A stretch of DNA of 64,000 nt from Humibacter sp. RRB41 (GTDB taxonomy: Bacteria; Actinomycetota; Actinomycetes; Actinomycetales; Microbacteriaceae). A program made the position numbers and the translations under genes. Numbering within the stretch: position 1 is the first letter of the stretch; every line of letters begins with the position of its first letter. This document shows positions 19,344-41,312 of the stretch, one piece after another. The notes under the pieces are model-generated. The model did no database searches. It was not told the DNA's origin and worked only from the letters and a program-made list of their open reading frames with translations. The stretch lies in assembly GCF_022761015.1 (NCBI RefSeq), contig NZ_JAKWJQ010000001.1, positions 62,001 through 126,000 on the forward strand, given 5' to 3'.

Positions 19344-19511
19344 ACCATCGACGACCCAGATGCCCACGCCGCGATCATCAGGCACATCCCGCTGGGGCGC
19401 GCAGGATCGCCGCGCGATGTGGAAGGCATCATGATGTTCCCGTCCTCCGACCACGGCGCGTTCGCGACGGGTTCGGTGTTCGCGGTCGACGGCAGCATGA
19501 CGACGCTCTGA
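19344..19511 (+). pseudogene. C-terminal relic of a short-chain dehydrogenase
   Basis: Reading on in frame after the apnO stop gives about 55 residues that match the end of classical SDRs: IRHIPLGRAGSPRDVEGIM, then FATGSVFAVDGSMTTL and a TGA at 19509-19511. The Rossmann domain and the Ser-Tyr-Lys catalytic core are absent, and there is no start codon with a ribosome site. The usual VDGG is VDGS. It looks like the tail left by a deletion between apnO and apnL. The lost enzyme might have been a sugar dehydrogenase of the same pathway. Confidence 0.8.
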
Positions 19512-19528
19512 GCGGAGCAGCACCTCAC

Positions 19529-24923: not shown

Positions 24924-25901
24924 ATGTCCACCAGCCACAACACCCGTCAGCATGACGGACAGGTGCGCCTTCTCACGAAGGTGGCGCGCATGTACCACGA
25001 GCGCGGCGTACGCCAGGCCGACATCGCCCAGTCGCTGAACATCTCGCAGGCGAAGGTCTCGCGCCTCCTGAAGCGCGCGGCCAACCTCGGCATCGTGCGT
25101 ACGATCGTCACCGTTGCGCCCGGCGTGTACTCGGAGCTCGAGGAGTCGCTCGAAGAGCGCTACGGCCTCGCCGAGGCCGTCGTGGTCGACTGCGATCCCG
25201 ATGCAGACGACGCAGAACGCATCGGCGCGATCGGCGCGGGGGCCGCCGCCTACCTCGAGGCGACACTCAGCGGTGCCGACCGCATCGGCGTCTCATCGTG
25301 GAGCCAGACCCTGCTGGCGATGACCGAACGCATGCGGCCGTTCACCACCCGCGGCGCGACCGAGGTCGTGCAGCTGCTGGGCGGCATCGGCTCGCCCGAC
25401 GTGCAGAGCCACTCGCACCGGCTGCTCGGCGACCTCGCGCGCATCCTCGGTGCTGATGCGGTCTACGTGCAGGCACCCGGCATCGTCGCCGGCCCCGAGA
25501 TCCGCGACAGCCTGCTCTCCGACCCGTCGATGCAAGAGGTCTCACGGCACTGGCGCGAGCTCACCATGGCCGTCATGGGCATCGGCAGCATCGAGCCGTC
25601 GGACATCCTGGCCGTGAGTGGCAACGCGTTCTCCACGTCCGATCGGCAGCAGCTCATCTCCGACGGCGCGGTCGGCGACATCTGCCACCGCATCTTCCGC
25701 GCAGACGGCTCGGGAGTCGCCGGCCCCGTCGACGATCGCATCATCGCCATCCCGGTGGACGATCTGCGACGCGTGCCCCGCCGAGTCGGGATCGCCGGAG
25801 GCCAACGCAAGCACGAGGCGATCCAGGGCGCGCTGGCCGGCAATTGGGTGAACACCCTGGTCACCGACCTGCAGACGGCAGAGGCTCTCGCCGAGGCCTG
25901 A
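24924..25901 (+). CDS. SorC family sugar-binding transcriptional regulator
   Basis: Predicted 325-residue regulator. An HTH at about residues 25-60 (RGVRQADIAQSLNISQAKVSR) is followed by the SorC effector domain (IGAGAAAYLEATLSGADRIG; GDICHRIFRADG; RRVGIAGGQRKHEAIQGAL). Effectors are usually phosphorylated sugars. GGAG at 24915-24918 supports the ATG at 24924 over the earlier one at 24900. It is probably co-transcribed with GH78. It is a good candidate for the factor that binds the AATTC-type sites in the island. Confidence 0.9.
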   Translation: MSTSHNTRQHDGQVRLLTKVARMYHERGVRQADIAQSLNISQAKVSRLLKRAANLGIVRTIVTVAPGVYSELEESLEERYGLAEAVVVDCDPDADDAERIGAIGAGAAAYLEATLSGADRIGVSSWSQTLLAMTERMRPFTTRGATEVVQLLGGIGSPDVQSHSHRLLGDLARILGADAVYVQAPGIVAGPEIRDSLLSDPSMQEVSRHWRELTMAVMGIGSIEPSDILAVSGNAFSTSDRQQLISDGAVGDICHRIFRADGSGVAGPVDDRIIAIPVDDLRRVPRRVGIAGGQRKHEAIQGALAGNWVNTLVTDLQTAEALAEA

Positions 25902-25931: not shown

Positions 25932-26582
25932 TCAGAGAGCGGCGACGGTCTCCTGCAGGCGCTGGATGCCCGGCACCAGGCTGGTCAGCACAGGAACCCT
26001 CACGTCGGCCGCCGCGGCGGCACTGGCCATGGATGCCTGAGCGAGCACGATCACGTCGGCATCGGCCGCCACTCGCTCGATCGCCGCTGCGACGAGCCGA
26101 TCGTGGGTGGGACGATCGCCATGCGACACCGCCTCGAAGGCTCCCTCGACCACCTCGCTGCTGATCACAGGATCGGCATTCGCGAGCGCGGCGCGCTCCT
26201 CGATCAGCCGGATCGTCGGTGCACAGGTCGTCGGCAATGTCGCGAGTACGGCGATCCGATGACCCTCGGCTACCGCCTGGTCGGCCATCGCCTCGTCGAT
26301 GCGCAGCACCGGGATGCCCAGCTCCCGCGAGACGGGCGCCGCGAGCTCCGAGATCGACGAGCAGGTCAGCATGACGACATCCGCGCCCGCGGTCTCGGCC
26401 GCACTCACCAGAGCTGCGACCCTCGTCGGCACCGTGGACGCCGTGCTCTCGTTGCCGAGGTCGGCGACGATGCGGTCGTCGAGGTAGTTGATGGCCGTCA
26501 CGTCGGGCAGATACTCCCGTGCGAGGTCCATCACCGGCTGGATGACGACGGCTCCGGTGTGCAAGAAGGCAACTCTCGTCAC
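25932..26582 (-). CDS. Aspartate/glutamate/hydantoin racemase-family protein
   Basis: Predicted 216-residue protein of the Asp/Glu racemase superfamily. VVMLTCSSISELAAPV holds the first catalytic Cys; the second position reads VIVLAQASMASAAAA, where Cys is replaced by Ala, as in some subgroups. TTCAPTIRLIEE has another Cys. Start is GTG 26582, 5 bases after the permease stop, so it belongs to the transporter operon. A racemase for amino acids is odd there; an isomerase or decarboxylase acting on a sugar-derived acid is possible but unproven. Confidence 0.75.
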   Translation of the reverse strand: MTRVAFLHTGAVVIQPVMDLAREYLPDVTAINYLDDRIVADLGNESTASTVPTRVAALVSAAETAGADVVMLTCSSISELAAPVSRELGIPVLRIDEAMADQAVAEGHRIAVLATLPTTCAPTIRLIEERAALANADPVISSEVVEGAFEAVSHGDRPTHDRLVAAAIERVAADADVIVLAQASMASAAAAADVRVPVLTSLVPGIQRLQETVAAL

Positions 26583-26587
26583 AATCC

Positions 26588-27496
26588 CTATCCCTTCAGC
26601 GAGCCGGCCGCGAGGCCGGACATGATCCTCTTGTTGAGGAAGATGAACACGATGAGCAACGCGACGATGTTGATGCTCACTGCGGCGAACAACGGCCCGT
26701 ACTGCGTGGATCCATACTGGTCGTTCAAGCTGAGAAGACCGACCTGGATCGTAGCCAACGACGGGTCTGTCGTGAACGTGAGCGCAACCAGCAGGTCGTT
26801 CCAGATGCTGAAGAACTCCACGAGGGCCACGGTCAGGATGGCATTCCGCATCAGCGGAATGCCGATGTTGAAGAACGACCGCAGCGGACCCGAGCCGTCC
26901 ATCGTCGCCGCCTCGAACACCTCGCGGGGCACCGACCGGAAGTAGGCGGCCATCAAGAAGGTCGTCAGCGGAAGACCGTCCACCGTGTAGGTGATGATCA
27001 TCGGCCAAAGGCTGTCGGTGATCCCGATCTTGAAGTAGAAGGTGAACAGCGGAACGAGGATCATCTGGCCGGGCACCATGATCCCGCCGAGGATCAGCAG
27101 CAGAACGGGGTTGCGTCCTCGCCAGACCATCACCTCGAGCGCATAGCCCGCTGCGACGCCCAGGATCAAGATGAGCATCACCGACGGGACGGTCACCAGA
27201 ATGCTGTTGCGATAGTTCACCGCGACATTGCCGGTCGTCAGCGCCTGAATGTAGTTGTTGAAGTCCCAGTACTGCGGCAGGCTCCAGGTGGGGTTCGAGA
27301 GGAACTCGGTCTGGGTCTTGAACGAGCCCATGACCATCCAGAACTGCGGGTACAGCACCACGATCAGCAGAACCGCGATCAGGATCCAGACCGGAATGCG
27401 GCGAAGGATGCGGCCGGCTCGACGTGAGCGCACCGCGGATGCCGTCGCGCGGCGGGCCGCGAATCCGGTCTCGGGAATCGTCTTCGACGTCGTCAT
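26588..27496 (-). CDS. Carbohydrate ABC transporter permease (MalG type)
   Basis: Predicted 302-residue permease with six transmembrane helices (first: IPVWILIAVLLIVVLYPQFW). The EAA loop is REVFEAATMDGSGPLRSFFNIGIPLM. It forms a heterodimer with the upstream permease for import of a sugar or oligosaccharide. The start codon lies 1 base after the stop of the first permease gene. No ATPase gene is present in the island; such CUT1 systems often share one MsmK-type ATPase encoded elsewhere. Confidence 0.93.
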   Translation of the reverse strand: MTTSKTIPETGFAARRATASAVRSRRAGRILRRIPVWILIAVLLIVVLYPQFWMVMGSFKTQTEFLSNPTWSLPQYWDFNNYIQALTTGNVAVNYRNSILVTVPSVMLILILGVAAGYALEVMVWRGRNPVLLLILGGIMVPGQMILVPLFTFYFKIGITDSLWPMIITYTVDGLPLTTFLMAAYFRSVPREVFEAATMDGSGPLRSFFNIGIPLMRNAILTVALVEFFSIWNDLLVALTFTTDPSLATIQVGLLSLNDQYGSTQYGPLFAAVSINIVALLIVFIFLNKRIMSGLAAGSLKG

Positions 27497-27497
27497 C

Positions 27498-28379
27498 TCA
27501 GCTCTCGGCCTTCCTGCTCGATGAACGGAAGATCGCGAGCGTGAAGAGCAGACACAGAATGGTCAGCATCAACGCGATCGTGCTGGCGTAGCCGTAGTCC
27601 GAGTAGTTGAACGCCGTTTGATACATGTACAGGGTGAGCGGTGTCGTCGATGTTCCAGGGCCGCCGTTGTTCAGCGCGAGGAGGCTGTCGAAGACCTTCA
27701 GCGTTGAGTTGAAGCTGAAGATGATCGAGCTGATGAGGATCGGCAGCGACAGCGGCACGATGATGTGCCGAATGAGCTTGACACCGTTGGCGCCGTCGAG
27801 CCGCGCCGACTCGATCACCTCCTCGGGAATGTCGAGCAGGCCGGTGTACAGCAGCACGGCGTAGAAGCCCATCGAGCTCCAATACGTCATGAGAAGCGCA
27901 ACGGTCATGGTGCCGACGTTGGAGGCGAGGAACTCCACGCTCTTGCCGCCGAAGAAGTTGATGATGTCGTTGATCGGCCCCTGATTCTGGCCGACCGACA
28001 CGAGGTTGCGGAACAGCAGAGCGACAGCGACGGTGGGCAGCACCATCGGGAAGAACACCGCGGTGCGCACGAACGCCGAGCCCTTGCGCAAGACGAAGAC
28101 GTAGAGCAGCGCGAGCAGATAGCCCAGGATGATCTGCCCGCCGGTGGCGAGGATGGCGAAGATGATGCTCACCCACAGCGACTGGATGGCGATCGGGTCG
28201 GTGAAGAACTTGCCGAAGTTGGCGAAGCCCACGAACGAGAATCCGCTCAGCGTGTTGCCCTCGAAGAACGAGAGCCCGAGCGACCACATCACGGGAACGA
28301 TCTTCAGAAGCACGTAGATGATGAGCGTTGGCGCAAGAAGAATGATGATCGTCTTGCGATCGCCGAACACACGTTTCAT
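27498..28379 (-). CDS. Carbohydrate ABC transporter permease (MalF type)
   Basis: Predicted 293-residue permease with six helices (first: TIIILLAPTLIIYVLLKIVP) and an EAA loop at PEEVIESARLDGANGVKLIRH. A GTCAGGAGGA ribosome site precedes the ATG at 28379; the frame runs further upstream but without a start. It is the second gene of the binding protein-permease-permease-racemase operon. Confidence 0.93.
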   Translation of the reverse strand: MKRVFGDRKTIIILLAPTLIIYVLLKIVPVMWSLGLSFFEGNTLSGFSFVGFANFGKFFTDPIAIQSLWVSIIFAILATGGQIILGYLLALLYVFVLRKGSAFVRTAVFFPMVLPTVAVALLFRNLVSVGQNQGPINDIINFFGGKSVEFLASNVGTMTVALLMTYWSSMGFYAVLLYTGLLDIPEEVIESARLDGANGVKLIRHIIVPLSLPILISSIIFSFNSTLKVFDSLLALNNGGPGTSTTPLTLYMYQTAFNYSDYGYASTIALMLTILCLLFTLAIFRSSSRKAES

Positions 28380-28465
28380 GGAAGTCCTCCTGACACCAAC
28401 CGGCTCGGATCTTCGCCTTTCGGAGGAGACCCGAGCCAGTGGATGCCCTGTCTTGCGATTTCTCG

Positions 28466-29791
28466 TTACTTGTTGGCGTCGATGCTGGCCTGCAGCTGCG
28501 ACATGTAGGTCTGAGCCGACATCTGCCCCGTGGTGAGGAGCGACACGTTCGACTGGGCCAGCGCTGTGGACTTGGCGTCCATCAGAGCCTCGAACCACAG
28601 CACGGTCTCCTTGATGTCGGCGACCTTCGTCTGGACCATCTTCGTGGGTGCAGGCACATCGGAGACGGCCTTGTTGATCTTGAAGCCCGACACGACGCCG
28701 TTCTCCTTCAGCGCCACCGAGCCGTAGTTGTTCGCGATGCACTTCAGCCAGTCGCTCACCTTGGGACCGTAGTCCTTCGGGTTCATCGCCATCGCCGCAC
28801 CGGCGTTCGCCGGCCACTGGTCGATGCTGCCGTTGCCGCCCGAAACGCCAGGGAACGGCATCAGGCCGACATTGTCGGAGCCGATGACATCCTGCGTCTT
28901 GTCGTTGATGTTGCTCAGCAGCCAGGAGCCGTTGTACATCATCGCGGACTTGCCGGTGAGGAAGTCGTTCGTGGCCGTTGCCGCATCGGTCGACACGAAC
29001 CCTTGCCCGAAGTAGCCGTCTTCGGCCATCTTCTGAATCTCGGTGGCGGCCTTGACGTACTTGGCGTCGGTGAGCTTCGCCTTGCCGTCTTGGATGTCCT
29101 TCATCGCATCGGGGCCGACGCTCCTGAAGATGTAGTCGCCGATGAGGCGGGTGACGGGCCAGGCATCCTTGCCGTCGGTGGCGAACGGCGTATAGCCGGC
29201 GTCCTTGATCTTGGCGGCGTCGGCCATCAGCTCATCGAACGTGGTCGGCTCAGACAGGCCGAGCTTGTCGAAGATCTTCTTGTTGAACCAGATGCCCTCG
29301 ATGTTGTACTGATACGGGAGCGACACCATCTGGCCGTACACCGAGTTCACCGTCGAGGCCGCGGCGGGAAGGATGTCGTCCCACACGCCGAGCTTCTTGA
29401 GTTGCTTCTCATAGTCGAGCACCAGGTTGTTCTTGCCGAGGTCTCCCGTCGGAGTGACCATCGCGGTGCCTGCGATGAAGTGCGCCGGAAGCGCGTTCTG
29501 GCTGGCGAGCAGCGTGACCTTCTGCACGACATCTGCCTGGGCGACCGTCTGGCTCTTCAGCGGCAGCGCCTTGTTCTCGGCCGAGCATGCGCCCGACGCG
29601 AGCGACTTGAGCTCGGTGGCGAGTGTGGGGTTCTCGTTGGCCGTCAGAACGGTGAAGCTCGACGGGTCCTTGCCTGTCGCGGTGCTGCCGGATGACCCGG
29701 CGCCTCCGCTGGAACAGGCAGCCAACGCGACGGCCGTCACAGCGGCCATTGACACCGCCACAAGAGTGCGGCGGGTTCGGCGGGTGATCAT
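28466..29791 (-). CDS. Carbohydrate ABC transporter substrate-binding lipoprotein
   Basis: Predicted 441-residue extracytoplasmic binding protein (family 1, CUT1). A lipoprotein signal ends in VALAAC at about residue 26, followed by a Gly/Ser linker. Features such as QYNIEGIWFNKKIFDKLGL and KSAMMYNGSWLL are typical of oligosaccharide-binding members. The ribosome site is AAGGAGGACG. It is first in the transporter operon and has a strong promoter at 29845-29873. The bound sugar is probably an oligosaccharide, because the glycosidases around it have no signal peptides. Confidence 0.94.
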   Translation of the reverse strand: MITRRTRRTLVAVSMAAVTAVALAACSSGGAGSSGSTATGKDPSSFTVLTANENPTLATELKSLASGACSAENKALPLKSQTVAQADVVQKVTLLASQNALPAHFIAGTAMVTPTGDLGKNNLVLDYEKQLKKLGVWDDILPAAASTVNSVYGQMVSLPYQYNIEGIWFNKKIFDKLGLSEPTTFDELMADAAKIKDAGYTPFATDGKDAWPVTRLIGDYIFRSVGPDAMKDIQDGKAKLTDAKYVKAATEIQKMAEDGYFGQGFVSTDAATATNDFLTGKSAMMYNGSWLLSNINDKTQDVIGSDNVGLMPFPGVSGGNGSIDQWPANAGAAMAMNPKDYGPKVSDWLKCIANNYGSVALKENGVVSGFKINKAVSDVPAPTKMVQTKVADIKETVLWFEALMDAKSTALAQSNVSLLTTGQMSAQTYMSQLQASIDANK

Positions 29792-30055: not shown

Positions 30056-32041
30056 ATGTCGACGACGACCCCGCTCCCCACAGGGCTGCTTCGTCCCCTT
30101 CATGCCGAGCAAGTTCGGTGGGGCCGCGGATTCTGGCAGGAAGTACAGCAACGCACCTTCGAGGTCACGGTGCCTCAGATGTGGCGTTCCCTCAGCAATC
30201 CAGAGGTGAGCCCGGGGCTGCAGAACTTCAAGATCGCCGCCGGACGTGAATCAGGCGAGCACGTCGGACCGCCGTTCATGGACGGCGACTTCTACAAGTG
30301 GCTCGAGGCAGCCATCGCCGAGCTCGAGGTCGAGCCGCAGGAGTGGCTGGCCGACACGGTCGAAGAGGTCGCACAGCTCATCGCCTCCGTGCAACGCGAA
30401 GATGGCTATCTGCACACCCCGACGCTCATCTCAGCTCGAGCGAACGGTGGCGTCGTCGAGTTGTCGGACCGCTTCGCGTTCGAGACGTACAACCTCGGCC
30501 ATCTCATCACGGCGGGCGTGCGGCACTACGAGGTGACTGGGAGCACGACGCTCCTGAATGCGGCGCGCAAGGCGGCCGGCTATCTAGAAGACCTCGCGAC
30601 GAACAAGCCGGTCGAGCTCGCGAGAAGCGCCATCTGCCCCTCGCACTACATGGCGGTGATCGAGCTCTATCGGGTGACCGCCGACGAGCGGTACCTGCGT
30701 CTCGCCGAGGCGTTCGTTCGTGTTCGCGATGACTTCGACGGCGGAGACGACAACCAGGACCGCCTGCCGGTTCGTGAGCAGAGTGTCGTCGCAGGCCACG
30801 CCGTGCGCGCCAACTACCTCTACGCCGGGCTCGCCGATCTCGTTGCGGAGAACGGCGACGACGGGCTGCGAACCGTGCTCGAAGGGCTCTGGGACGACGT
30901 CGCCGACACGAAGCTCTACATCACCGGCGGATGCGGTGCACTCTACGACGGCGCATCGCCCGACGGCGACCCGTGGCAGTGGGAGATCAGCAAGGTGCAC
31001 CAGTCCTATGGGCGCGCATACCAGCTGCCGAACACCACGGCACACAGCGAGTCGTGCGCGAACATCGGAATGATCCTGTGGAGCGAACGGATGCTCGCGC
31101 TCACCGGCGACGCCAAGTACGCGGACGCCATCGAGACCATCGCCTACAACTCCTTGCTCGCGGGCATCGGCCTCGGCGGCAACGACTACTTCTACACGAA
31201 CCCGCTGCGTCAGGTTCGTGACCTTCCCTACCCGTTGCGACGACCGGGCGACACAGCGCTCGACCCGGTCCCGGCGCCACCGCCCTCCGACGAACGGCTC
31301 AGGCAGAGCTACCTGAGCTGCTTCTGCTGTCCGCCCAACACGGCGCGCACGCTGGCGCGATTCCACGAGCGGGCGGCATCCGTCACTGATGACGAGCTCT
31401 ACGTTCATCTCTACGGCGGCAGCGACATCCGCGTCTCGCACGGAGATCGAACTCTCGCCTTGCGGGAGGACACGCAGTACCCGTGGGGCGAAGATGTGCG
31501 ATTCACGGTCGAGGAGGCGACGGACGGCGGGATTCCCGTTCGGCTGCGCATTCCCGGGTGGTCGCGCGGCGCATCCCTTCTCGTCAACGGCGAGCCGGCG
31601 GAGGTCTCCGCGCCGGGCAGCTACGTGAAGATCGATCGCGAGTGGCGGGCAGGCGACACGATCGTTCTGAGCATCCCGATGCCCTCGAGGGTCATCCGCG
31701 CGAACCGGCTCGCAGAAGAGGTGACCAACCAGGTCGCCGTGCAGCGCGGACCTGTGGTGTTCTGCCTGGAAAGCACCGATCTTCCCGCCGGCATGCCGCT
31801 GGAGCGGATCGCGCTGCGACGCGGCACGGAGCTCCAGGCCGAAGACGGCGAGGTGGCGGGGCACCGCATGCAGGTGATCCCGGTCAGCCTCAGCGTTCTT
31901 CCGCGCGGCGGCACAGATTCGCTGTATGAAGATCTCTCCGACGACGAGCTCGAGGTGGTCGAGACGCGCCTGATCCCCTACTACGCCTGGGGAAACAGGG
32001 GCCAGTCCGAGATGTCCGTGTGGCTCCCGGTCGTGTGGTGA
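30056..32041 (+). CDS. GH127 glycoside hydrolase (beta-L-arabinofuranosidase family)
   Basis: Predicted 661-residue cytoplasmic hydrolase with an (alpha/alpha)6 barrel and C-terminal beta domains. The zinc-thiolate active site of GH127 is complete: Glu332 and Cys334 in HSESCANIG, then Cys424-Cys425 in SCFCCPPN, one of which is the nucleophile. Known members cleave beta-L-arabinofuranosides, and one Bacteroides member acts on aceric acid in rhamnogalacturonan II. The ATG at 30056 has GAGAGG nearby; a TTG at 30032 with GGAGGAAGA is a possible earlier start. First gene of the operon with the RuBisCO-like protein and oiaK. Confidence 0.9.
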   Translation: MSTTTPLPTGLLRPLHAEQVRWGRGFWQEVQQRTFEVTVPQMWRSLSNPEVSPGLQNFKIAAGRESGEHVGPPFMDGDFYKWLEAAIAELEVEPQEWLADTVEEVAQLIASVQREDGYLHTPTLISARANGGVVELSDRFAFETYNLGHLITAGVRHYEVTGSTTLLNAARKAAGYLEDLATNKPVELARSAICPSHYMAVIELYRVTADERYLRLAEAFVRVRDDFDGGDDNQDRLPVREQSVVAGHAVRANYLYAGLADLVAENGDDGLRTVLEGLWDDVADTKLYITGGCGALYDGASPDGDPWQWEISKVHQSYGRAYQLPNTTAHSESCANIGMILWSERMLALTGDAKYADAIETIAYNSLLAGIGLGGNDYFYTNPLRQVRDLPYPLRRPGDTALDPVPAPPPSDERLRQSYLSCFCCPPNTARTLARFHERAASVTDDELYVHLYGGSDIRVSHGDRTLALREDTQYPWGEDVRFTVEEATDGGIPVRLRIPGWSRGASLLVNGEPAEVSAPGSYVKIDREWRAGDTIVLSIPMPSRVIRANRLAEEVTNQVAVQRGPVVFCLESTDLPAGMPLERIALRRGTELQAEDGEVAGHRMQVIPVSLSVLPRGGTDSLYEDLSDDELEVVETRLIPYYAWGNRGQSEMSVWLPVVW

Positions 32042-32046
32042 TCGCG

Positions 32047-33303
32047 ATGAGCACCGGATTCGTCATCGCGACATACATCATCGAGACCTCGCTCCCGCTC
32101 CGCAGGGCGGCCGAAATCCTCGCTGGAGAGCAGTCGACAGGCACCTTCGTTCGCGTCGCGCGCGAGTCCGACGACGTGCGAGCCCGCTTCGCGGCGCGGA
32201 TCGACTCGCTCCACGAGCTTCCGCTCACCGGCGCGTCGCCCCTCCCCGGCACCGTCGGGGACCCGACGAGGCGACGCAGGGCACTACTCAAGCTGCGCTT
32301 CCCGCTCGACAACTTCGGGCCATCCGTGCCCAACCTGCTCGCCGCTGTCGCCGGCAACCTGTTCGAGGTCAAGGAGCTCGCCGCGGTGAAGCTCATCGAC
32401 CTCGACCTTCCTTCGGAGTTCGCCGAGCGCTATGCGGGTCCGCAGTTCGGAGTCGAGGGCACGAGACGCCTGATGAGCCGGCCATCCGGCGTTCTGCTCG
32501 GAACGATCATCAAGCCCAGCATCGGCCTCTCACCGGAGGAGATCGCGGAGGTCGTCGCCGAGCTCGCAGCGGCGGGCATCGACTTCATCAAAGACGATGA
32601 GCTGCAGGGCAACGGAAGGGGTGCACCGCTCGCCGAGCGCGTGAAGGCCGTGATGCCGGTGCTCGAGCGCCACGCGGACCGCACCGGTGTGAAGCCGATG
32701 TACGCGTTCAACATCACCGACGACATCGACCGGCTCGAGGCCAACCACGACCTCGTCGTGAACGCAGGCGGCACGTGCGTCATGGCGTGCGTCAACTTGA
32801 TCGGCTTGGCCGGCCTCGACTACCTGCGCAGGCGCTCGTCGGTGCCGATCCACGGACACCGCGCCATGTTCGGCGCCATCAGCCGCTCCGAGCAACTCGG
32901 GATAGGGTTCCGTGCGTGGCAGAAGCTCGTGCGCCTCTGCGGCGCCGATCACCTGCACACGAACGGGATCAGCAACAAGTTCTACGAGACGGACGACCAA
33001 GTGCTCGACTCCATCGCCGCGGTGCGTGAGCCGCTGCTCGGCCTGACCTCCACCGTTCCGGTGCTCTCGTCTGGGCAGTGGGCGGGTCTCGCCCACGCGA
33101 CGCTGGATGCCGTCGGCTCCACCGACCTGCTGGTGCTCGCCGGCGGCGGCATCCACGGGCATCCGGATGGCGTGGCCGCGGGGGTGGCCAGCATGCGGGA
33201 TGCCTGGGACTCGGCTGTACGCGGCGAAGACGCGCTCACCGCCCTGGAGAACTCCGAGTCGCTGCGACGCGCGGCCGAACTGTTCGGACCGGTGCGTGTC
33301 TGA
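32047..33303 (+). CDS. RuBisCO-like protein, probable 3-oxo-isoapionate-4-phosphate processing enzyme
   Basis: Predicted 418-residue form IV RuBisCO-like protein. The metal site is kept (FIKDDE, Lys182-Asp184-Glu185, with Lys the carbamylation position), as are HGHRAMFGA, GADHLHTNG and LAGGGIHGH. In the GTIIKPS loop Lys156 is kept but the second catalytic lysine is Ser158, so true CO2 fixation is not expected. Paired with a DUF1537 kinase, it corresponds to OiaT (transcarboxylase/hydrolase giving glycolate and 3-phosphoglycerate) or OiaX (decarboxylase giving L-erythrulose 1-phosphate). A GTG at 32038 overlapping the GH127 stop is an alternative start. Confidence 0.85.
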   Translation: MSTGFVIATYIIETSLPLRRAAEILAGEQSTGTFVRVARESDDVRARFAARIDSLHELPLTGASPLPGTVGDPTRRRRALLKLRFPLDNFGPSVPNLLAAVAGNLFEVKELAAVKLIDLDLPSEFAERYAGPQFGVEGTRRLMSRPSGVLLGTIIKPSIGLSPEEIAEVVAELAAAGIDFIKDDELQGNGRGAPLAERVKAVMPVLERHADRTGVKPMYAFNITDDIDRLEANHDLVVNAGGTCVMACVNLIGLAGLDYLRRRSSVPIHGHRAMFGAISRSEQLGIGFRAWQKLVRLCGADHLHTNGISNKFYETDDQVLDSIAAVREPLLGLTSTVPVLSSGQWAGLAHATLDAVGSTDLLVLAGGGIHGHPDGVAAGVASMRDAWDSAVRGEDALTALENSESLRRAAELFGPVRV

Positions 33304-34585
33304 GCGCACTGCGCACCCACGTGTCGCGTTCTACGGCGACGACTTCACGGGCAGTGTCGACGCGCTTCTCCAGTTCTCCCGTCGCGGCTGGAAGGCGAGG
33401 TTATTCGTCGGCCTGCCGTCGCAGCGGCTTCTCGATGAAGCGGCGGCGAGCAGCGACGCGGTCGGCATCGCCGGCATCGCCCGCTCCCTGCCGACGCACG
33501 CACTCGACCACGAGCTGACCCCCGTCTTCGAGGCGCTGGCTGCTCTGCAGCCGCGCGTGCTGCAATACAAAGCCTGCTCGACGGCGGACTCATCGCCGAA
33601 GATCGGCAGCCTCGGCCGCGTGATCGAACTCGGCCGGCGTGCCGTCCCCACGCACACGGTGCCGGTGCTCTTCGCCCAGCCCGACTTCGGTCGTTACACG
33701 GCGTTCGGACACCACTTCGCTGCGGAGAACGGCGTGGTGTATCGGCTCGATCGTCAGCCGACCATGTCGACCCACCCCTCGACGCCGATGGACGAGTCCG
33801 ACCTCGCCGTGCACCTCGGCAGGCAGACGGAGCTGCCGATCGCGGGCATCCCGTTCACCGCGTACGCGACGGCCACGGCCATCGCCGATCACATTCGGCA
33901 CACGGACGCCGCGGCCGTCGTTCTCGACGCGATCGACGACACCCAGCTGACCATGATCGGCGAGGCGCTCCTGCAGCTTCCCGAGCCGCTGTTCGCCCTC
34001 GGCTCCGGCGGCCTCAGCCACGCCATCGCCGCCGCCTGGCCGGCGCCGGGGGACGTACGCCCGCAGACCGCGATCGCCGGCGGCCCGATCCTCGCGGTCT
34101 CGGGCAGTCGCTCGGCCCAGACCCGTCGACAGGTTCAGGCTGCCGCCGATGCCGGCTGGCTGGTGCGCCCTCTTCCGACGTCGGCATGGCCCGTTCCCGG
34201 CGTGCTCGCCGACGTCACGAGTGCCCTGCAGTCCGGCCGAAGCGTCGTGCTCGCCTCGGACGGGGTCGAGACCGCTGCGACGGGCGAGACGATCACACTG
34301 GAGTCGATCGCCGCACGCGCGGCCGAGTTCGTCTCGGCAGCGGCGAACAGCGGGGCCTCCAGACGCATCGTCGTCTGCGGCGGCGACACGTCGAGTCGCG
34401 TCACCAGCCTGCTCGGCGTCGACTCGCTGTCGATCGCCGCCAATCCGTGGGCGAACATCGTGGTGCTGCACGCCCACTCCAGTGATCAGGCGATGGACGG
34501 CCTCGAGCTCGTGCTCAAGGGCGGCCAGGTCGGCGACGACGACTTCTTACTGCGGCTCGAAGCGCTCAGTTCGCCTCGAGCCTGA
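33296..34585 (+). CDS. oiaK: DUF1537 four-carbon acid sugar kinase, probable 3-oxo-isoapionate kinase
   Basis: Predicted 429-residue kinase. The N-terminal sugar-binding domain opens with VAFYGDDFTGSVDALLQF and the C-terminal nucleotide domain contains VVCGGDTSSRVTSLLGVD and LKGGQVGDDDFL. The GTG start overlaps the RuBisCO-like gene by 8 bases, showing tight coupling. Kinases of this family coupled to RuBisCO-like proteins phosphorylate 3-oxo-isoapionate at O-4. Other DUF1537 kinases act on threonate or erythronate, less likely here. Its 3' end overlaps that of the converging GH2 gene by 20 bases. Confidence 0.82.
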   Translation: MSERTAHPRVAFYGDDFTGSVDALLQFSRRGWKARLFVGLPSQRLLDEAAASSDAVGIAGIARSLPTHALDHELTPVFEALAALQPRVLQYKACSTADSSPKIGSLGRVIELGRRAVPTHTVPVLFAQPDFGRYTAFGHHFAAENGVVYRLDRQPTMSTHPSTPMDESDLAVHLGRQTELPIAGIPFTAYATATAIADHIRHTDAAAVVLDAIDDTQLTMIGEALLQLPEPLFALGSGGLSHAIAAAWPAPGDVRPQTAIAGGPILAVSGSRSAQTRRQVQAAADAGWLVRPLPTSAWPVPGVLADVTSALQSGRSVVLASDGVETAATGETITLESIAARAAEFVSAAANSGASRRIVVCGGDTSSRVTSLLGVDSLSIAANPWANIVVLHAHSSDQAMDGLELVLKGGQVGDDDFLLRLEALSSPRA

Positions 34586-37517
34586 CGCTCCAGTTCGTTC
34601 GCTCCCGCGGAATGCGATAGCGCTCCGGCAGTGCGGGGCCGACGGATGCCGAGCCGAGCCCCTGCTGTGCGTGGTCGAGATTGAGCCACACCCGGCCGGA
34701 GTCCACGAGCTCGTACGGCTTCACGGCTCGCTGCAGGTCGAGCGATGTCCAGCGTCGTGCGGTGAAGTCGAACTGCGGCCGGCCGTCGATTCGCATCGTT
34801 GGGAGCCCGGCGCCGTGCAGCTCCAGGCTGCGCGTGTGCACGTGATTGCCGTTCTCCTGCGGCACCGGGTAGGGCACCTGCAGGGCATCGATGTCGGCGG
34901 CATATCGGCCGATCCGGCTGCCGTCGAACGAGTCGACGTATGTCTCTCCCGGCCCGCGTCCGTACCATTCGACGGTCTCGTACCCGCGCGGCAATGAGAA
35001 GAGCAGCCCGAGCCGTGGCACCCAGATGTCGCGGTGGCGATACGGTGTGTCGTTCCACGGACCGACGAAGGATGCATCGACCGAGAGCGCGAGCCCGTCG
35101 CCGTCGGTCGCCCACAGCATCGTCCATTCGACGGCGTGCGGATGCGAAGCGGGAGCGGTGCGCCCGTGTGACCGCAGCCATCCGTCTCCGTGCTCGACGG
35201 CATCCGTTCGATGCAGAAGGCGATCGAGACCGGTGTCGTGCCACACAGCTGCGATGTCGTTGAGGTCGCCCTGACCCCTGTCGTTCTCGGTCGGGGCGCG
35301 GTGCAGGTCGAGCCACGGCCCGTCGAGCTCGAGGTCCCCCCATCGTCTCAGGCGACCCGTGCGTCCATCGAAGACGGCGGCACCGAGGTGCACCGCGTCT
35401 GCGCTGGCTGTGCGCGCAGCATCGAAGTCGAACGCGACAGCCTCTCTGGGAGGCGTCTGCACCACGTGCTGGCCCCAGGCGATCAGATGGCCGGCCTCGG
35501 CCCACCGGGTGTCGTCTGCGAGCACAGCGGTGACGGTGACGACTGTCTCGTGATCGGCGCTCGTCACCGCAGCCGGCAGCTCGACGCTCGCCTCCTGCGA
35601 GGGCTCGATGACCGGCACCGCCAGGTCTCCCTCGTCGACGAGCACACCGTCCTGCTCGACGCGCCAGCGGAAGGCCAGGTCGGAGGTGTCGGCGGTGTGC
35701 CGCGTGTTTCCGATCACCACAGACTCCAGGACCTCCGACCGGGCGATGTCGATCCGGATCGGCTGGTACGCCTTCGAGAGCTGTACGAGCCCCGGAGTGG
35801 GCGTGCGGTCGCTGAAGACAAGACCGTGCAGGCTGAAGCGTCCCCCGCACGGCTCGTAGTCGACATCCTCACCGTTCATGATGAAGGGCACGCCGTTCGA
35901 GGTCGTCGCCGTGAAACCGTGGTCGATCCACTCCCAGACGAATCCGCCGCAGAGGCGGTCGTGCCTCTCGATGATGTCCCAGTAGTCACCGAGAGATCCA
36001 GGGCCGTTGCCCATCGCGTGCCCGTACTCGATCAGCAGGAAGGGCAGCGAACGCCGCCGTTCGTCGTCGCTCGCGCTCACGCCGTCCGGGGCATCCTCTT
36101 CTCGACGACCGATGCGCTCCAGGTCGTCGAGAGACGGATACATCACCGCGTAGAAGTCGGAATCGCGATAGCTCGGATCGCGCTCGTAGAGCAGAGGGCG
36201 CGACGGATCGCGGTCGCGCACCCACGCTTCGAGCTCGTCGAACGCCGTGCCCGACCCGCTCTCGTTCGCCAGCGACCAGACCACGACGCTCGCGTGGTTC
36301 TTGTCGCGCTCGACCATCCGCTGCACGCGGTCGAGCAGCGCACCGCGCCACCGCGGGTCGGCCGGCGGGTTGGCCTCTGGCGCGGTGAAGACGAATCCGT
36401 GCGTCTCGATGTCGCACTCCTCGACCACCCAGAGGCCGTACTCGTCGCAGAGCCTCAGGAACTCCGGATGCGGCGGGTAGTGACTCGTGCGGACGGCGTC
36501 GATGTTCGCGCGTTTCATCGTCTCGATGTCGCGGATCATCGTGTCCCGGTCGAGCGTTCGTCCCTTCTCCTGGTCGTGTTCGTGCCGATTCACGCCGCGG
36601 AACTTCACGGGTCGACCGTTCACGACGAACACGCCGTCCCTGATCTCGACCCTGCGGAACCCCACGGCGAGCGCGACGATCTCGCCGTCGGAGCGAAGCT
36701 CGCCGCGATAGAGCCGCGGCACCTCGGCGCTCCACGGTTCGACGGGCATCGTCACGGTCTCGCCTGCTGCGATGTGAACGCCGAGCTCCGGGATGTCCAC
36801 CCTCGCCGGCTCGGACGAGTCGATTCTCAGGGTGCCGAGCCCGGTCTGCGGGTCGTAGTCGGCGTGCACGAAGTGATCGTCGATCGCGGCCGGCGGCCGT
36901 TCGATCAGCTCCACGTCGCGGAAGATGCCGGGGAGCCACCACATGTCCTGATCTTCAAGGTATGTTCCGGCTGACCACCTGTGCACCCGAACGGCCAGTA
37001 CGTTGCGCCCAGGTCGCACTGCGACGTCGAATTCGAAGGGCAGCCTGCTTCCGGTCGACCAGCCGAGCTCGTCGCCGTTGAGCCACACCTTGGCGCACGA
37101 GTCAACACCCTGGAAGCGCAGAACAGCGTGCCCACAGTCGGCCGGCGCCTCGAAGACGAGCCGATAGTCCCCCGTCGGATTCTCGATGCTGACATGAGGC
37201 GGATCGAGCGGAATCGGAAACGCCGTGTTCGTGTAGAGCGGTCCCTCTGCCGTGCCGCGCATCGACCTGATCGGCCCGCCTGCCAGCGGGGTGAAAGGTT
37301 CGAGCACCCAATGCGAGGGCACGGCCATGCTGTCCCACTCGGAATCGTCGAAGTCGTCGCCGATGAAGTCCCGGCCCGTTCCCGCTGAGGTCGCTGACAA
37401 GCGGAAGCGCCACCGGCCATTCAGATCGAGCATCCGCGCCGTGCTGACCGCATCCGCCCTCGGCTTCCTGCGTCCCGCCCCTGGCTCGAAGCTCTCCCAG
37501 TACGCTCTCACGCTCAC
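34566..37517 (-). CDS. GH2 beta-galactosidase-like glycoside hydrolase (LacZ type)
   Basis: Predicted 983-residue enzyme with the LacZ architecture: sugar-binding jelly roll (about 50-215), Ig-like domain, TIM barrel (about 290-580), then Ig and beta-sandwich domains. The acid/base is Glu419 in SLANESGSG and the nucleophile Glu497 in LIEYGHAMGNGPG. There is no signal peptide, so it acts on imported sugars. The GTG start overlaps the stop of the aldo/keto reductase (GTGA), giving a two-gene operon. Beta-galactosidase is the usual activity; related members act on other beta-glycosides in pectin loci. Confidence 0.93.
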   Translation of the reverse strand: MSVRAYWESFEPGAGRRKPRADAVSTARMLDLNGRWRFRLSATSAGTGRDFIGDDFDDSEWDSMAVPSHWVLEPFTPLAGGPIRSMRGTAEGPLYTNTAFPIPLDPPHVSIENPTGDYRLVFEAPADCGHAVLRFQGVDSCAKVWLNGDELGWSTGSRLPFEFDVAVRPGRNVLAVRVHRWSAGTYLEDQDMWWLPGIFRDVELIERPPAAIDDHFVHADYDPQTGLGTLRIDSSEPARVDIPELGVHIAAGETVTMPVEPWSAEVPRLYRGELRSDGEIVALAVGFRRVEIRDGVFVVNGRPVKFRGVNRHEHDQEKGRTLDRDTMIRDIETMKRANIDAVRTSHYPPHPEFLRLCDEYGLWVVEECDIETHGFVFTAPEANPPADPRWRGALLDRVQRMVERDKNHASVVVWSLANESGSGTAFDELEAWVRDRDPSRPLLYERDPSYRDSDFYAVMYPSLDDLERIGRREEDAPDGVSASDDERRRSLPFLLIEYGHAMGNGPGSLGDYWDIIERHDRLCGGFVWEWIDHGFTATTSNGVPFIMNGEDVDYEPCGGRFSLHGLVFSDRTPTPGLVQLSKAYQPIRIDIARSEVLESVVIGNTRHTADTSDLAFRWRVEQDGVLVDEGDLAVPVIEPSQEASVELPAAVTSADHETVVTVTAVLADDTRWAEAGHLIAWGQHVVQTPPREAVAFDFDAARTASADAVHLGAAVFDGRTGRLRRWGDLELDGPWLDLHRAPTENDRGQGDLNDIAAVWHDTGLDRLLHRTDAVEHGDGWLRSHGRTAPASHPHAVEWTMLWATDGDGLALSVDASFVGPWNDTPYRHRDIWVPRLGLLFSLPRGYETVEWYGRGPGETYVDSFDGSRIGRYAADIDALQVPYPVPQENGNHVHTRSLELHGAGLPTMRIDGRPQFDFTARRWTSLDLQRAVKPYELVDSGRVWLNLDHAQQGLGSASVGPALPERYRIPRERTNWSVRLEAN

Positions 37518-38440
37518 TCCTCTTCCCAGGCGCTCGGCGCCGGGCCGAGCTCGGCCAGCGCACTCCAGAGCTCGTCGGGGATCCGCGCACGGCTCAGCTC
37601 ATCGAGCTCCTGCAGACGCTGTTGCGACGAGACACCCACCACCGTCGAGTCCACGAGCGGTGAGCGCGTCGAGAAGTGCAGTGCCGCGGCGGGGAGCGAC
37701 ACGCCGCGATCGAAGCAGACCCGTTCAGCCGACTTCACCCATGAGATCAGGTTGTCGGATGCCGGCCGGTAGCCATAGGTGGCGCCAGGGGGCGCACCAG
37801 ATGCGAGAATGCCACCACCGAACGGTGCGGCGTTGAACACCGTCATCCGCCTCGATCGGGCCTCGGTCAGCAGCAGCTCGGCGCTGCGGTCGACGAGGGT
37901 GTAGCGGTTGTGTGTGAGCAGCACGTCGAACGCATCGGTCTCGACGTACGACCGCATCAGCGGGATAGGACCGGCGGCGATGCCGATCGCCGAAACCGCT
38001 CCCGACTCGCGCAGCTCGAGCATCCCTTCGATCGCACCACCGGGCGCCGCCGCCTCGGCGAGCGTGATCGTGTACGGGTCGTGCAGGTGCAAGATACCCA
38101 CTCGCTCGAGCCCCAACCGCGAAAGGCTCTCCTCGAACGAGCGCAGCACTCTGTCCCGGTCGAGCGCGCCCGTCATCGGGTCGCGATCGACCTTCGTCAC
38201 GATGCCGGAGGTAGGAACATCGCCGAGTCGGGCGAGAGCTCTGCCGAGGATCTGTTCCGAACGACCCCCTGAGTACGCGTTCGAAGTATCGACCAGGGGG
38301 AACGGACCGCGCAGAATGGCCATGGCAGTGATCAGCTCATCGGTCGCGCTGCGACGGGCGTTCCCGCCCAATGCTGACGTGCCGACGGTGATCGCGCCGA
38401 GTGTGGTTCCTTCGTGGATGGACGTCGTCGTACTCCTCAT
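37514..38440 (-). CDS. Aldo/keto reductase (D-threo-aldose 1-dehydrogenase-like)
   Basis: Predicted 308-residue AKR with the catalytic tetrad visible: Asp and Tyr in LVDTSNAYSGGRSE, Lys in GIVTKVDRDP and His in ILHLHDPY. The fold resembles L-fucose/D-threo-aldose 1-dehydrogenases that convert aldoses to lactones. It is therefore the best local candidate for oxidising D-apiose to apionolactone, the step for which no canonical enzyme is seen. The ATG at 38440 is chosen because a TATACA -10 box lies 10 bases upstream; the ATG at 38461 is also in frame. Operon partner of GH2. Confidence 0.85.
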   Translation of the reverse strand: MRSTTTSIHEGTTLGAITVGTSALGGNARRSATDELITAMAILRGPFPLVDTSNAYSGGRSEQILGRALARLGDVPTSGIVTKVDRDPMTGALDRDRVLRSFEESLSRLGLERVGILHLHDPYTITLAEAAAPGGAIEGMLELRESGAVSAIGIAAGPIPLMRSYVETDAFDVLLTHNRYTLVDRSAELLLTEARSRRMTVFNAAPFGGGILASGAPPGATYGYRPASDNLISWVKSAERVCFDRGVSLPAAALHFSTRSPLVDSTVVGVSSQQRLQELDELSRARIPDELWSALAELGPAPSAWEEE

Positions 38441-38450
38441 CCAAACGGGG

Positions 38451-38475
38451 TGTATATCCATTCTATAATGAATTC
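38451..38475. promoter_or_regulatory. divergent promoters of AKR and GlcD-GlcF genes
   Basis: A perfect TATAAT (38464-38469) precedes the GlcD-GlcF gene and TATACA (38451-38456, minus strand) the reductase gene. AATGAATTC at 38467-38475 overlaps the former and shares the AATTC core of the island's other promoters. No good -35 box is seen for either. Confidence 0.5.
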
Positions 38476-38498
38476 TGTTTCAATTGAGGAGGCATCCC

Positions 38499-41312
38499 GT
38501 GGACGCGCCAGCACCAGCCACCCTCACCGCGCCCGACGCGCACCTGGTCTCGCTGCTCGAGACGGCCTGCGGGCACGTGGCCGTGCGGGCGTCCGACCGT
38601 CTCGCCGGAGCGCACGACGCGTCGCACTATCTGCTCACGCCCGTCGCCGTCGCGACGGCCGATGACGCCTCCGAAGTCGGCCGCATCCTCGCCACCGCAC
38701 GCGATCAGCGGGTATCCGTCACGTTCCGCTCAGGCGGAACGAGCCTGTCCGGGCAGGCCGGAACCGACGGCGTTCTCGTCGACACTCGCAAAGGGTTTCG
38801 CACGATCACCGTCCTCGACGACGGTGCTCGAGTGCGCGCCCAGCCAGGCGCGACCGTGCGAGCCGTGAATACCCGACTCGCACGGTTCGGACGCAAGCTC
38901 GGCCCCGATCCCGCGAGCGAGATCGCATGCACGATCGGCGGCGTCGTGGCGAACAACTCCAGTGGCATGTCGTGCGGCACGCACGCGAACACATATCGCA
39001 CGCTCGAGTCGGCGGTGCTCGTGCTGCCGAGCGGAACGGTGATCGACACGGGAGCAGCGGGTGCCGCGAGCATTCTTCGCGACCGCGAGCCGGGCATCCA
39101 TGCCGGCCTCGAGTCGCTGCGCGACAGGGTGCGCTCGAATCACGACTCGGTAGCCACCCTGCGCCGGCTGCACTCGATCAAGAACACGATGGGCTACGGC
39201 CTCAACTCGTTCCTCGACCACGACGATCCCCTGACGATCCTGGAGCACCTGGTCGTCGGTTCGGAGGGCACGCTCGCGTTCGTCGCCGAAGCGACGTTCC
39301 GGACCGTCGCGGCGCCCGCTCACCTGGCCACCGGACTCCTCATCTTCCAGAACCTCTCCGACGCGACCGCGGCACTTCCGGAGCTGGTAGAAGCCGGCTT
39401 CGCCACGATCGAGCTGATGGATGCCGCATCCCTGCGAGTCGCGCAGCAGGACCCCGAAGCGACGCCGGAGTTGCTCGCGGTGCACGTCGTCGACCACGCC
39501 GCACTGCTCGTCGAGCACCAGACCGACAGCGCTGAGCGGCTTCAGATGCTGACGGACGACGCGGCCGCTCTCTTCACGACACTGCCGCTGGTCAACGACG
39601 CCGCGCTCACCACCGACTCCGCGACCCGCGGACAGCTGTGGCACATCCGCAAGGGGCTCTTCACCGCCGTCGCAGGCGCTCGGCCGTCCGGCACGACCGC
39701 ACTGCTCGAAGACATCGCCGTTCCCGTTGATCGGTTGAACGACACCTGCGCGCAACTGATCGGCCTGTTCGATAAACACGGCTACGAGGGCAGCGTGATC
39801 TTCGGGCACGCCAAGGACGGCAACATCCACTTCCTCATCAACGAGCGGTTCGACGTGCCGCAGAATCTGGCACGCTACGAGTCCTTCACCGAGGACATGG
39901 TCGACCTCGTCCTCAGCCAAGGCGGAACCCTCAAGGCCGAGCACGGCACCGGCCGCATCATGGCCCCGTACGTCAGGCGGCAGTACGGCGATGAGCTGTA
40001 CGACGTGATGTGGGCGGTGAAGCGCCTCATCGACCCGGAGATGACGCTCAATCCGGGCGTCGTGCTGACGGATGACCCACACGCCCACACGAAGAACCTC
40101 AAGACCTCGCCCACTGTCGAGCAGGAGGTGGATCGTTGCGTCGAGTGCGGCTACTGCGAGCCCGTGTGCCCCAGCCGTGACCTCACAGTGACGCCCCGCG
40201 AGCGCATCGTGCTGCGACGCGAGCTGGAGCGTGCACGAATCGCGGGTGACGTCGAGCTCGTGCGCACCCTGGAGAAGGAGTACGACTACGACGGGGTGCA
40301 GACGTGTGCGGTGGATGGGATGTGCCAGACGGCGTGCCCCGTGCTGATCAACACCGGCGACCTGGTTCGCCGGCTTCGCGCCGAGCAGCAGGGTGCGCTG
40401 AGCCAAGCGGGCTGGAAGGCCGCGGCCGGCGCGTGGGGCGCCGTGAGTTCGGCCGGCGGACTGGCTCTCAGCGCCGCTCATGCCCTGCCGTCGGCCTCGA
40501 CGCTCGCGACGAAGGCCGCGCGTGCCGTTCTGGGCTCGGACACCGTGCCGCTGTACTCCGCCGAGTTGCCCGCGGGCGGCGAACGACGCGCGGTCATCCA
40601 CTCGTCGGATGCCGTCGCCGTCTACTTCTCGAGCTGCACGACGACCATGTTCGGCGGCGTCGGTGATGGGAGCGTCTCCGAGTCGTTCCTGCGGCTCTGC
40701 GAGCGGGCGGGGATCTCGGTGTCCACACCCGACGACATTCCGTCCCTGTGCTGCGGAACGCCCTGGAAGTCGAAGGGACTCACGGCCGGATACGAGGTCA
40801 TGAAGAAGAAGGTCGTCGCGTCGCTGCTGCGAGCGACGGACGGCGGACGTCTCCCCGTCGTGTGCGACGCCTCGTCGTGCACCGAGGGCCTGCAGATTCT
40901 CGTCGAGGCCGCAGGAGAGAGCGGTCTGCGCATCGTCGACGCGGTCGAGTTCGTCGACCAGAGCGTGCTCCCGCTACTGCCGAAGCCGAGCCGCGTGACG
41001 TCGGTCACCCTTCACCCCACGTGTTCGTCCACGCACCTGGGCATCAACGCCGCGCTGCAGCACGTCGCCGAGGCCACTGCCGAGACCGTCGTGATCCCTG
41101 AGGACTGGGGATGCTGCGCCTTCGCCGGCGACCGCGGCATGCTGCATCCCGAACTGACGGCAGTGGCGACGACGCCCGAGGCGCGCGATGTCGCGGCCGC
41201 GGCATCCTCGACGCACGCGTCCCTGAATCGCACGTGCGAGCTCGGCATGACCAGGGCGACCGGGCACGAGTACCGGCACATCCTGCAGGTGCTCGACGAC
41301 GCTCTGCGCTGA
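38499..41312 (+). CDS. FAD-linked oxidase / Fe-S oxidoreductase fusion (GlcD-GlcF type)
   Basis: Predicted 937-residue 2-hydroxyacid dehydrogenase. An FAD-binding domain (FRSGGTSLSGQAGTDGVLVD; CTIGGVVANNSSGM) and FAD-oxidase C-terminal domain (HAKDGNIHFLIN; EHGTGRI) fill residues 1-530. Two Fe-S motifs follow (CVECGYCEPVCP about 547, CAVDGMCQTACP about 603), then CCG domains (LCCGTPWKSKG; CCAFAGDRG). The start is GTG 38499, with GAGGAGG 6 bases before it. Relatives oxidise glycolate, D-lactate or D-2-hydroxyglutarate. Glycolate fits if the RuBisCO-like protein is an OiaT-type transcarboxylase/hydrolase. Confidence 0.88.
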   Translation: MDAPAPATLTAPDAHLVSLLETACGHVAVRASDRLAGAHDASHYLLTPVAVATADDASEVGRILATARDQRVSVTFRSGGTSLSGQAGTDGVLVDTRKGFRTITVLDDGARVRAQPGATVRAVNTRLARFGRKLGPDPASEIACTIGGVVANNSSGMSCGTHANTYRTLESAVLVLPSGTVIDTGAAGAASILRDREPGIHAGLESLRDRVRSNHDSVATLRRLHSIKNTMGYGLNSFLDHDDPLTILEHLVVGSEGTLAFVAEATFRTVAAPAHLATGLLIFQNLSDATAALPELVEAGFATIELMDAASLRVAQQDPEATPELLAVHVVDHAALLVEHQTDSAERLQMLTDDAAALFTTLPLVNDAALTTDSATRGQLWHIRKGLFTAVAGARPSGTTALLEDIAVPVDRLNDTCAQLIGLFDKHGYEGSVIFGHAKDGNIHFLINERFDVPQNLARYESFTEDMVDLVLSQGGTLKAEHGTGRIMAPYVRRQYGDELYDVMWAVKRLIDPEMTLNPGVVLTDDPHAHTKNLKTSPTVEQEVDRCVECGYCEPVCPSRDLTVTPRERIVLRRELERARIAGDVELVRTLEKEYDYDGVQTCAVDGMCQTACPVLINTGDLVRRLRAEQQGALSQAGWKAAAGAWGAVSSAGGLALSAAHALPSASTLATKAARAVLGSDTVPLYSAELPAGGERRAVIHSSDAVAVYFSSCTTTMFGGVGDGSVSESFLRLCERAGISVSTPDDIPSLCCGTPWKSKGLTAGYEVMKKKVVASLLRATDGGRLPVVCDASSCTEGLQILVEAAGESGLRIVDAVEFVDQSVLPLLPKPSRVTSVTLHPTCSSTHLGINAALQHVAEATAETVVIPEDWGCCAFAGDRGMLHPELTAVATTPEARDVAAAASSTHASLNRTCELGMTRATGHEYRHILQVLDDALR

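Follow-up and report, generated by a model that had tools for sequence, protein, structure and literature searches.

In a 64,000-nucleotide stretch of the genome of the high-GC actinobacterium Humibacter sp. RRB41 (contig NZ_JAKWJQ010000001.1, positions 62,001 to 126,000; hereafter the window), a RuBisCO-like protein (RLP) and a DUF1537 kinase are encoded directly behind a GH127 protein that resembles aceric acid hydrolases (acerosidases). We propose, with a probability of roughly 0.6, that the RLP and kinase are part of a module that is distinct from apiose catabolism and uses aceric acid freed from rhamnogalacturonan II by the adjacent GH127. Plant cell walls contain aceric acid as a rare acidic sugar, and rhamnogalacturonan II is a plant polysaccharide of great complexity. 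An earlier note on this DNA had read the RLP, the kinase and a downstream fusion oxidase as a glycolate-producing branch of the apionate pathway. The three genes are real, with profile matches at 32047-33303, 33299-34585 and 38499-41312; the note had passed over the adjoining GH127, a racemase homologue and a separate apiose/apionate cluster (14701-21304, plus strand), the last recognized from protein families and gene order.

Association of the RLP and kinase with an acerosidase-type GH127

The GH127, RLP and kinase genes are tightly packed on the plus strand, with 5 bp gaps or overlaps. The GH127 gene (30056-32041) ends 5 bp before that of the RLP (32047-33303; Pfam RuBisCO_large PF00016, 226 bits), the proposed cleaving enzyme of the module, and the start codon of the SBD_N/NBD_C kinase gene (33299-34585) overlaps the RLP stop codon. 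This is the single RLP of the whole 3.9 Mb genome, and the closest RLP, from Humibacter albus, shares 89% identity. The sole family match of the GH127 protein was NCBIfam NF049879, 'aceric acid hydrolase', over its full length with 761 bits (E 9.5e-229), a score below the curated equivalog cut-off of 950, and by sequence the protein is classed with aceric acid hydrolases rather than being a proven member. Its best solved structure was 5mqo with 583 bits, nearer than the beta-L-arabinofuranosidases and the next GH127, at no more than 352 bits. We take 5mqo to be BT1003. BT1003 is an aceric acid hydrolase (PMC10850190, PMC5698469). The window hydrolase falls in the same GH127 subfamily as this Bacteroides thetaiotaomicron enzyme of rhamnogalacturonan II breakdown. 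The Bacteroides control genome, however, had an acerosidase match without a PF00016 match, whereas the window couples its hydrolase to a catabolic module.

We compared the distribution of these genes in two samples. In the window's order (396 genomes), the GH127 scores fell into two groups, one of 616-762 bits, seen in 14 genomes, and one of 477 bits or less; proteins above 600 bits were counted as acerosidase-class. This class of RLP was present in 14/14 of the acerosidase genomes compared with 1/382 of the others (Fisher p 7e-25, a value that ignores kinship). RLP, kinase or racemase homologue lay within 1.5 kb of the GH127 gene at 14/14 acerosidase-class loci compared with 0/16 lower-scoring ones. 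The complete close-clade loci (L005-L022) all shared GH127, kinase and the racemase homologue as neighbours of the RLP, and the RLP-kinase pair was kept in nearly all RLP loci. The second sample comprised 300 Bacteroidota genomes of the Pedobacter order, with acerosidase counted above the curated cut-off. Acerosidase was found in 107 genomes, a PF00016 protein in 36 and both in 34, which places acerosidase in 34/36 RLP genomes compared with 73/264 RLP-less genomes (Fisher test, again ignoring kinship). In all 34 genomes with both, the racemase homologue was encoded within 3 kb of the RLP and ApnO, the dehydrogenase of the apionate genes, was absent. The one Bacteroidota RLP genome of this kind without acerosidase (G637) showed the reverse pattern, with ApnO 6 kb from the RLP and no racemase homologue. 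A minimal four-gene operon of RLP, kinase, racemase homologue and SBF symporter recurs in Bacteroidota. In the RLP tree, the actinobacterial module RLPs and those of Bacteroidota and Planctomycetota formed separate, well-supported clades, so the linkage of GH127 and RLP arose more than once. The genome comparisons themselves show which genes make up the module, that it goes with acerosidase in two phyla and that it does not depend on ApnO. As the RLP and kinase travel with acerosidase across two phyla, they are probably part of a route for aceric acid digestion.

A candidate route for aceric acid

Aceric acid is 3-C-carboxy-5-deoxy-L-xylose (Spellman 1983, as cited in PMC12168206). Its 2-keto isomer, HOOC-C(OH)(CHOH-CH3)-CO-CH2OH, is 3-oxo-isoapionate, HOOC-C(OH)(CH2OH)-CO-CH2OH, with one additional branch methyl. 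On chemical grounds, this difference of a single methyl suggests that an OiaK-like kinase and an OiaT- or OiaX-like RLP could take the aceric substrate with little change. To our knowledge, aceric acid is the only sugar of rhamnogalacturonan II with a C-carboxyl on a tertiary alcohol.

In the proposed route, GH127 would release aceric acid from rhamnogalacturonan II, and the free sugar would be converted to the 2-keto isomer, possibly through an aldose-ketose isomerase activity of the one-cysteine racemase homologue. The kinase would then phosphorylate the CH2OH group of the 2-keto isomer, and the RLP would decarboxylate the phosphorylated compound, recarboxylate the enediol one carbon along and hydrolyse it in the fashion of OiaT. 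The products would be 3-phosphoglycerate and lactate, for which the L enantiomer is expected from sugar C4. The glycolate predicted in the earlier note is thus not the expected product of OiaT-like cleavage of an aceric substrate, and the immediate partner of the RLP is an acerosidase-type GH127. That a module of this exact composition operates across phyla, pairing a one-cysteine isomerase of the racemase superfamily with an RLP that performs intramolecular carboxyl transfer and hydrolysis to 3-phosphoglycerate and lactate, is the tentative part of the proposal and remains doubtful in its detail. We know of neither an isomerase role in the Asp/Glu racemase superfamily nor such an RLP activity on a methyl-branched substrate.

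The racemase homologue (25932-26582, minus strand; Pfam PF01177, 67.6 bits), encoded 5 bp past an ABC permease gene, adjoins the RLP or the acerosidase in relatives. Its solved-structure matches were hydantoin, allantoin, aspartate and glutamate racemases, all with weak scores. The protein lacks the two catalytic cysteines of amino acid and hydantoin racemases; it keeps one (C80, in a TCSS motif), and the second-cysteine site reads AQASM in nearly all aligned homologues, across phyla. From these residues, a two-base racemase is unlikely. By analogy, the protein could be an aldose-ketose isomerase, a role that we assign with low confidence; RpiB uses a cysteine base. We also considered the racemase homologue as a replacement for ApnO and ruled this out, since ApnO is of the NAD(P) type and both proteins co-occur in the window.

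Catalytic residues of the RLP

The OiaK-OiaT and OiaK-OiaX pairs are branches of D-apiose catabolism (Carter et al. 2018, as cited in PMC6302742). These systems, from Xanthobacter autotrophicus and Agrobacterium radiobacter K84 respectively, likewise combine an RLP and a DUF1537 kinase in one operon, and they share with the window an intact carbamylation site and the loss of RuBisCO K177. The window module differs in having an acerosidase-type GH127 and a racemase homologue in place of ApnO.

We compared the window RLP with L186, a form I RuBisCO from the window's order. The residues E60, T65, N123, K175, K201, D203, E204, H294, R295, H327, K334 and S379 of RuBisCO are all retained, the carboxylation and hydrolysis residues among them being E28, N104, H304, K156, K182, K311 and S342 in window numbering. 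Of the catalytic residues checked, only two are changed, K177 to Ser158 and H298 to Phe. The KDDE metal site (K182, D184, E185) is intact, as the earlier note had stated, and the alignment also bears out its Ser158 at the K177 position. As a diagnostic feature Ser158 was dropped, this serine being near-universal in apiose-linked and module RLPs alike. E60, N123 and H327 (E28, N104 and H304 in the window) are kept in all 44 module RLPs and in 31 ApnO-linked RLPs, whereas the four annotated OiaX proteins carry D60, G123 and Q327, a residue set that the window RLP does not match. The features of OiaX and OiaT were derived from NCBIfam-labelled plasmid genes and gene context. Identity of the window RLP is ~49% to ApnO-linked RLPs compared with ~40% to annotated OiaX. 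The retention of E, N and H favours carboxyl transfer and hydrolysis, and the preference of the earlier note for OiaT-like over OiaX-like chemistry is upheld on these grounds.

The most durable alternative keeps aceric acid as the substrate and has the RLP only decarboxylate, in OiaX fashion, to a 5-deoxypentulose 1-phosphate that an aldolase would split into dihydroxyacetone phosphate and acetaldehyde. This is our fallback for the cleavage step, and its chemistry is simpler; the Bacteroidota and Planctomycetota module RLPs are also nearer to the OiaX clade, with 510-513 bits to the OiaX model, and a class II aldolase is encoded nearby in one locus (L058). However, E60, N123 and H327 are kept in both module clades and lost in OiaX, the minimal operon has no aldolase, and a 2-hydroxyacid-type oxidase is operonic with the pair in Microbacterium halimionae. 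We consider decarboxylation alone unlikely.

Several RLPs of the wider group deserve mention in their own right. Those of L003, L118 and L125 adjoin enolase, pyruvate kinase or glycerate kinase, as expected if these RLPs yield 3-phosphoglycerate. In these loci and in L114, L115 and L120, neither ApnO nor acerosidase adjoins the RLP, which in most cases comes with a DUF1537 kinase, and nearby genes in the six encode SDR/alcohol dehydrogenases, KDG permease or TRAP transporters, and enolase, pyruvate kinase or glycerate kinase. They are probably further RLP pathways that act on other branched acids and feed 3-phosphoglycerate. A gene of Rhizobium acidisoli annotated as OiaX (L123:7971-9254) lies among aldo/keto reductases and a 3-keto-5-aminohexanoate cleavage protein, without ApnO, and the name OiaX is perhaps applied too widely. 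Assemblies named 'Planococcus' (L017) and 'Akkermansia muciniphila' (L056, L071) contain RLP loci of an actinobacterial or proteobacterial type; these contigs are probably mislabelled or contaminated.

The separate apiose gene set

The apiose set is encoded on the plus strand, 11-17 kb upstream of the RLP. It comprises a LerK-like DAK (dihydroxyacetone-kinase-like) protein (14701-16458), a DerI/RpiB-type protein (16455-16925), a LerI/TIM-type protein (16910-17701), an OiaC-like protein with a xylose-isomerase-like barrel (17701-18492), an ApnO-like dehydrogenase (18489-19343; PGDH_C, 182 bits) and an ApnL-like homologue of D-apionate lactonase (19529-21304; ApnL NF049900, 207 bits compared with a cut-off of 750). 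The names LerK, LerI, DerI and OiaC are our assumption from gene order, family and published pathways. The OiaC-LerK-LerI-DerI branch, the L-erythrulose route, is present in full, and through this set L-erythrulose and D-erythrose 4-phosphate are reached with no RLP involved.

The presence of ApnO 13 kb from the RLP could be taken to support the view of the earlier note, in which RLP and kinase form an OiaK-OiaT apiose branch of the classic kind that runs parallel to the OiaC route and yields 3-phosphoglycerate and glycolate. Sequence identity does place the RLP nearer to ApnO-linked RLPs than to annotated OiaX, the set of RuBisCO residues is retained, and a malate synthase encoded in the genome could absorb glyoxylate. 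However, the RLP adjoins GH127, and not ApnO, in all complete close-clade loci, none of which has ApnO within 10 kb of the RLP. A clear ApnO is missing from 5 of the 13 other acerosidase genomes of the order (G048, G098, G126, G224 and G280, each with a completeness of at least 99%), and in G330 the ApnO match is of only 32%. In total, the module occurs without ApnO in 39/47 acerosidase-positive RLP genomes tested (5 actinobacterial and 34 Bacteroidota). Conversely, the LerI-OiaC-ApnO order is conserved in relatives with and without an RLP, and ApnO was found in 16/80 RLP-negative genomes tested in the window's order. This double dissociation of ApnO and module argues against 3-oxo-isoapionate as the RLP substrate in this clade, and we regard an apiose branch as quite unlikely. 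The malate synthase gene was also considered as a test for glycolate and set aside; its presence in the genome makes it uninformative.

The fusion oxidase

The pairing of the RLP with a glycolate-oxidase-type enzyme had been offered as evidence for glycolate. The FAD/Fe-S fusion 2-hydroxyacid oxidase of the GlcD+GlcF type (38499-41312, plus strand; FAD_binding_4, FAD-oxidase_C, Fer4 and CCG domains) starts more likely at GTG 38499, behind GAGGAGG, than at the listed TTG 38484. It lies 3.9 kb from the kinase, with a GH2 gene and an aldo/keto reductase gene in between on the opposite strand. Its scores fell below the equivalog cut-offs of glcD (183/568 bits), GlcF (30/333) and YdiJ (168/1350), and by these models it does not qualify as a glycolate oxidase GlcDEF. 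The 'perfect TATAAT promoter' of the earlier note exists as a perfect hexamer (38464-38469, plus strand); a promoter scan gave nothing beyond this bare hexamer and called no sigma-70-like promoter, because a matching -35 element is lacking.

Oxidases of this type are widespread in RLP-positive and RLP-negative genomes alike. In the tree, the oxidases of the window and of Humibacter belong to a lineage (100/100) that is otherwise found far from an RLP or in RLP-less genomes, while the RLP-adjacent oxidases of Microbacterium and Promicromonospora form a separate sister lineage; two genomes carry both. In M. halimionae, the sister-lineage oxidase is operonic with the RLP-kinase pair, overlapping the kinase by 4 bp. 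As the lineage of the window oxidase is not linked to RLPs, this copy is weak evidence for glycolate and was rejected as such after the tree. By its placement, the window oxidase is probably outside the module in this genome; in certain species, the module may employ a 2-hydroxyacid oxidase. The fit between the L-lactate expected from C4 and the D-specific habit of GlcD-type enzymes is not obvious.

Neighbouring genes and related loci

Divergent from the GH127 gene, a CUT1-type sugar ABC importer is encoded on the minus strand (26588-29791), with two permeases and a binding protein (open reading frames 26588-27496, ~27498-28389 and 28466-29791), and it is conserved beside the module in relatives. 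A SorC/DeoR-type sugar-binding regulator (24939-25901, plus strand; Pfam PF04198, 192 bits) and a GH78 alpha-L-rhamnosidase that provides a pectin context (22282-24894, plus strand; NCBIfam rhamnosid_Stmyc, 773 bits) are also present. The GH2 protein of beta-galactosidase type (34566-37517, minus strand; NCBIfam beta_gal_Bga2A, 684 bits) is a variable companion, near the module in several relatives.

In two Paenibacillus loci (L036:7544-9268, L057:7476-9209), an unannotated protein of 574-577 amino acids with no NCBIfam match occupies the acerosidase position and is possibly an alternative hydrolase. The RLP genes of two sphingomonad loci (L002:10187-12001, L072:8001-10001) overlap a very distant GH127-like gene in surroundings that resemble pectin degradation; with that neighbour at 87 bits, too distant for assignment, these loci are at most possible further members of the module. 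Two CoA-transferase genes and Gfo/Idh, MaoC and MFS genes lie directly upstream of RLP, kinase, racemase homologue and SBF symporter in some Bacteroidota (L228, L231 and L232).

Discussion

That the GH127 is an ordinary beta-L-arabinofuranosidase and the module serves another pectin sugar or sugar acid, as its score under the curated cut-off and other RLP-kinase pairs with clearly unassigned substrates (L003, L114, L115, L118, L125) would allow, is improbable given the sharp score gap within the order, the scores of 1156 and 943 bits for the GH127s beside the same module in L077 and L058, and the tertiary-alcohol carboxyl that sets aceric acid apart.

Several observations weigh against an aceric acid module, beginning with the GH127 score. 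The best NCBIfam match of the RLP is OiaX (NF042437) with 406 bits, under the curated equivalog cut-off of 700, while the annotated OiaX of L121 reaches 779 bits on the same model; the kinase scores 276 bits to OiaK (NF042436), also under a cut-off of 700, but the ApnO-linked kinase of L119 likewise reaches only 472 bits. The OiaX residue comparison covers four sequences from one clade, and the racemase homologue is no more than a candidate for the isomerase. RLP and acerosidase are directly adjacent in just 7/34 Bacteroidota genomes, and the RLP is absent from 73/107 acerosidase-positive Bacteroidota. Rhamnogalacturonan II could be a common cause behind part of the genome co-occurrence, though not behind the operon linkage. 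Three acidobacterial loci (L059, L060, L068) combine RLP, kinase, ApnO and racemase homologue, the sole case of a mixed arrangement, and Paenibacillus loci have racemase homologue, RLP and kinase without a recognized acerosidase.

Our literature search, which left subscription journals mostly outside its reach, found no description of aceric acid catabolism, and the novelty of the route is therefore provisional. That gut Bacteroides release aceric acid is already known, and the later fate of the freed sugar is the new point. If the proposal is true, it would name genes for the use of aceric acid and explain why part of the acerosidase-bearing bacteria could use this sugar. It would also add a substrate to those of RuBisCO-like proteins and would caution against calling RLP-kinase pairs apiose genes on similarity alone.

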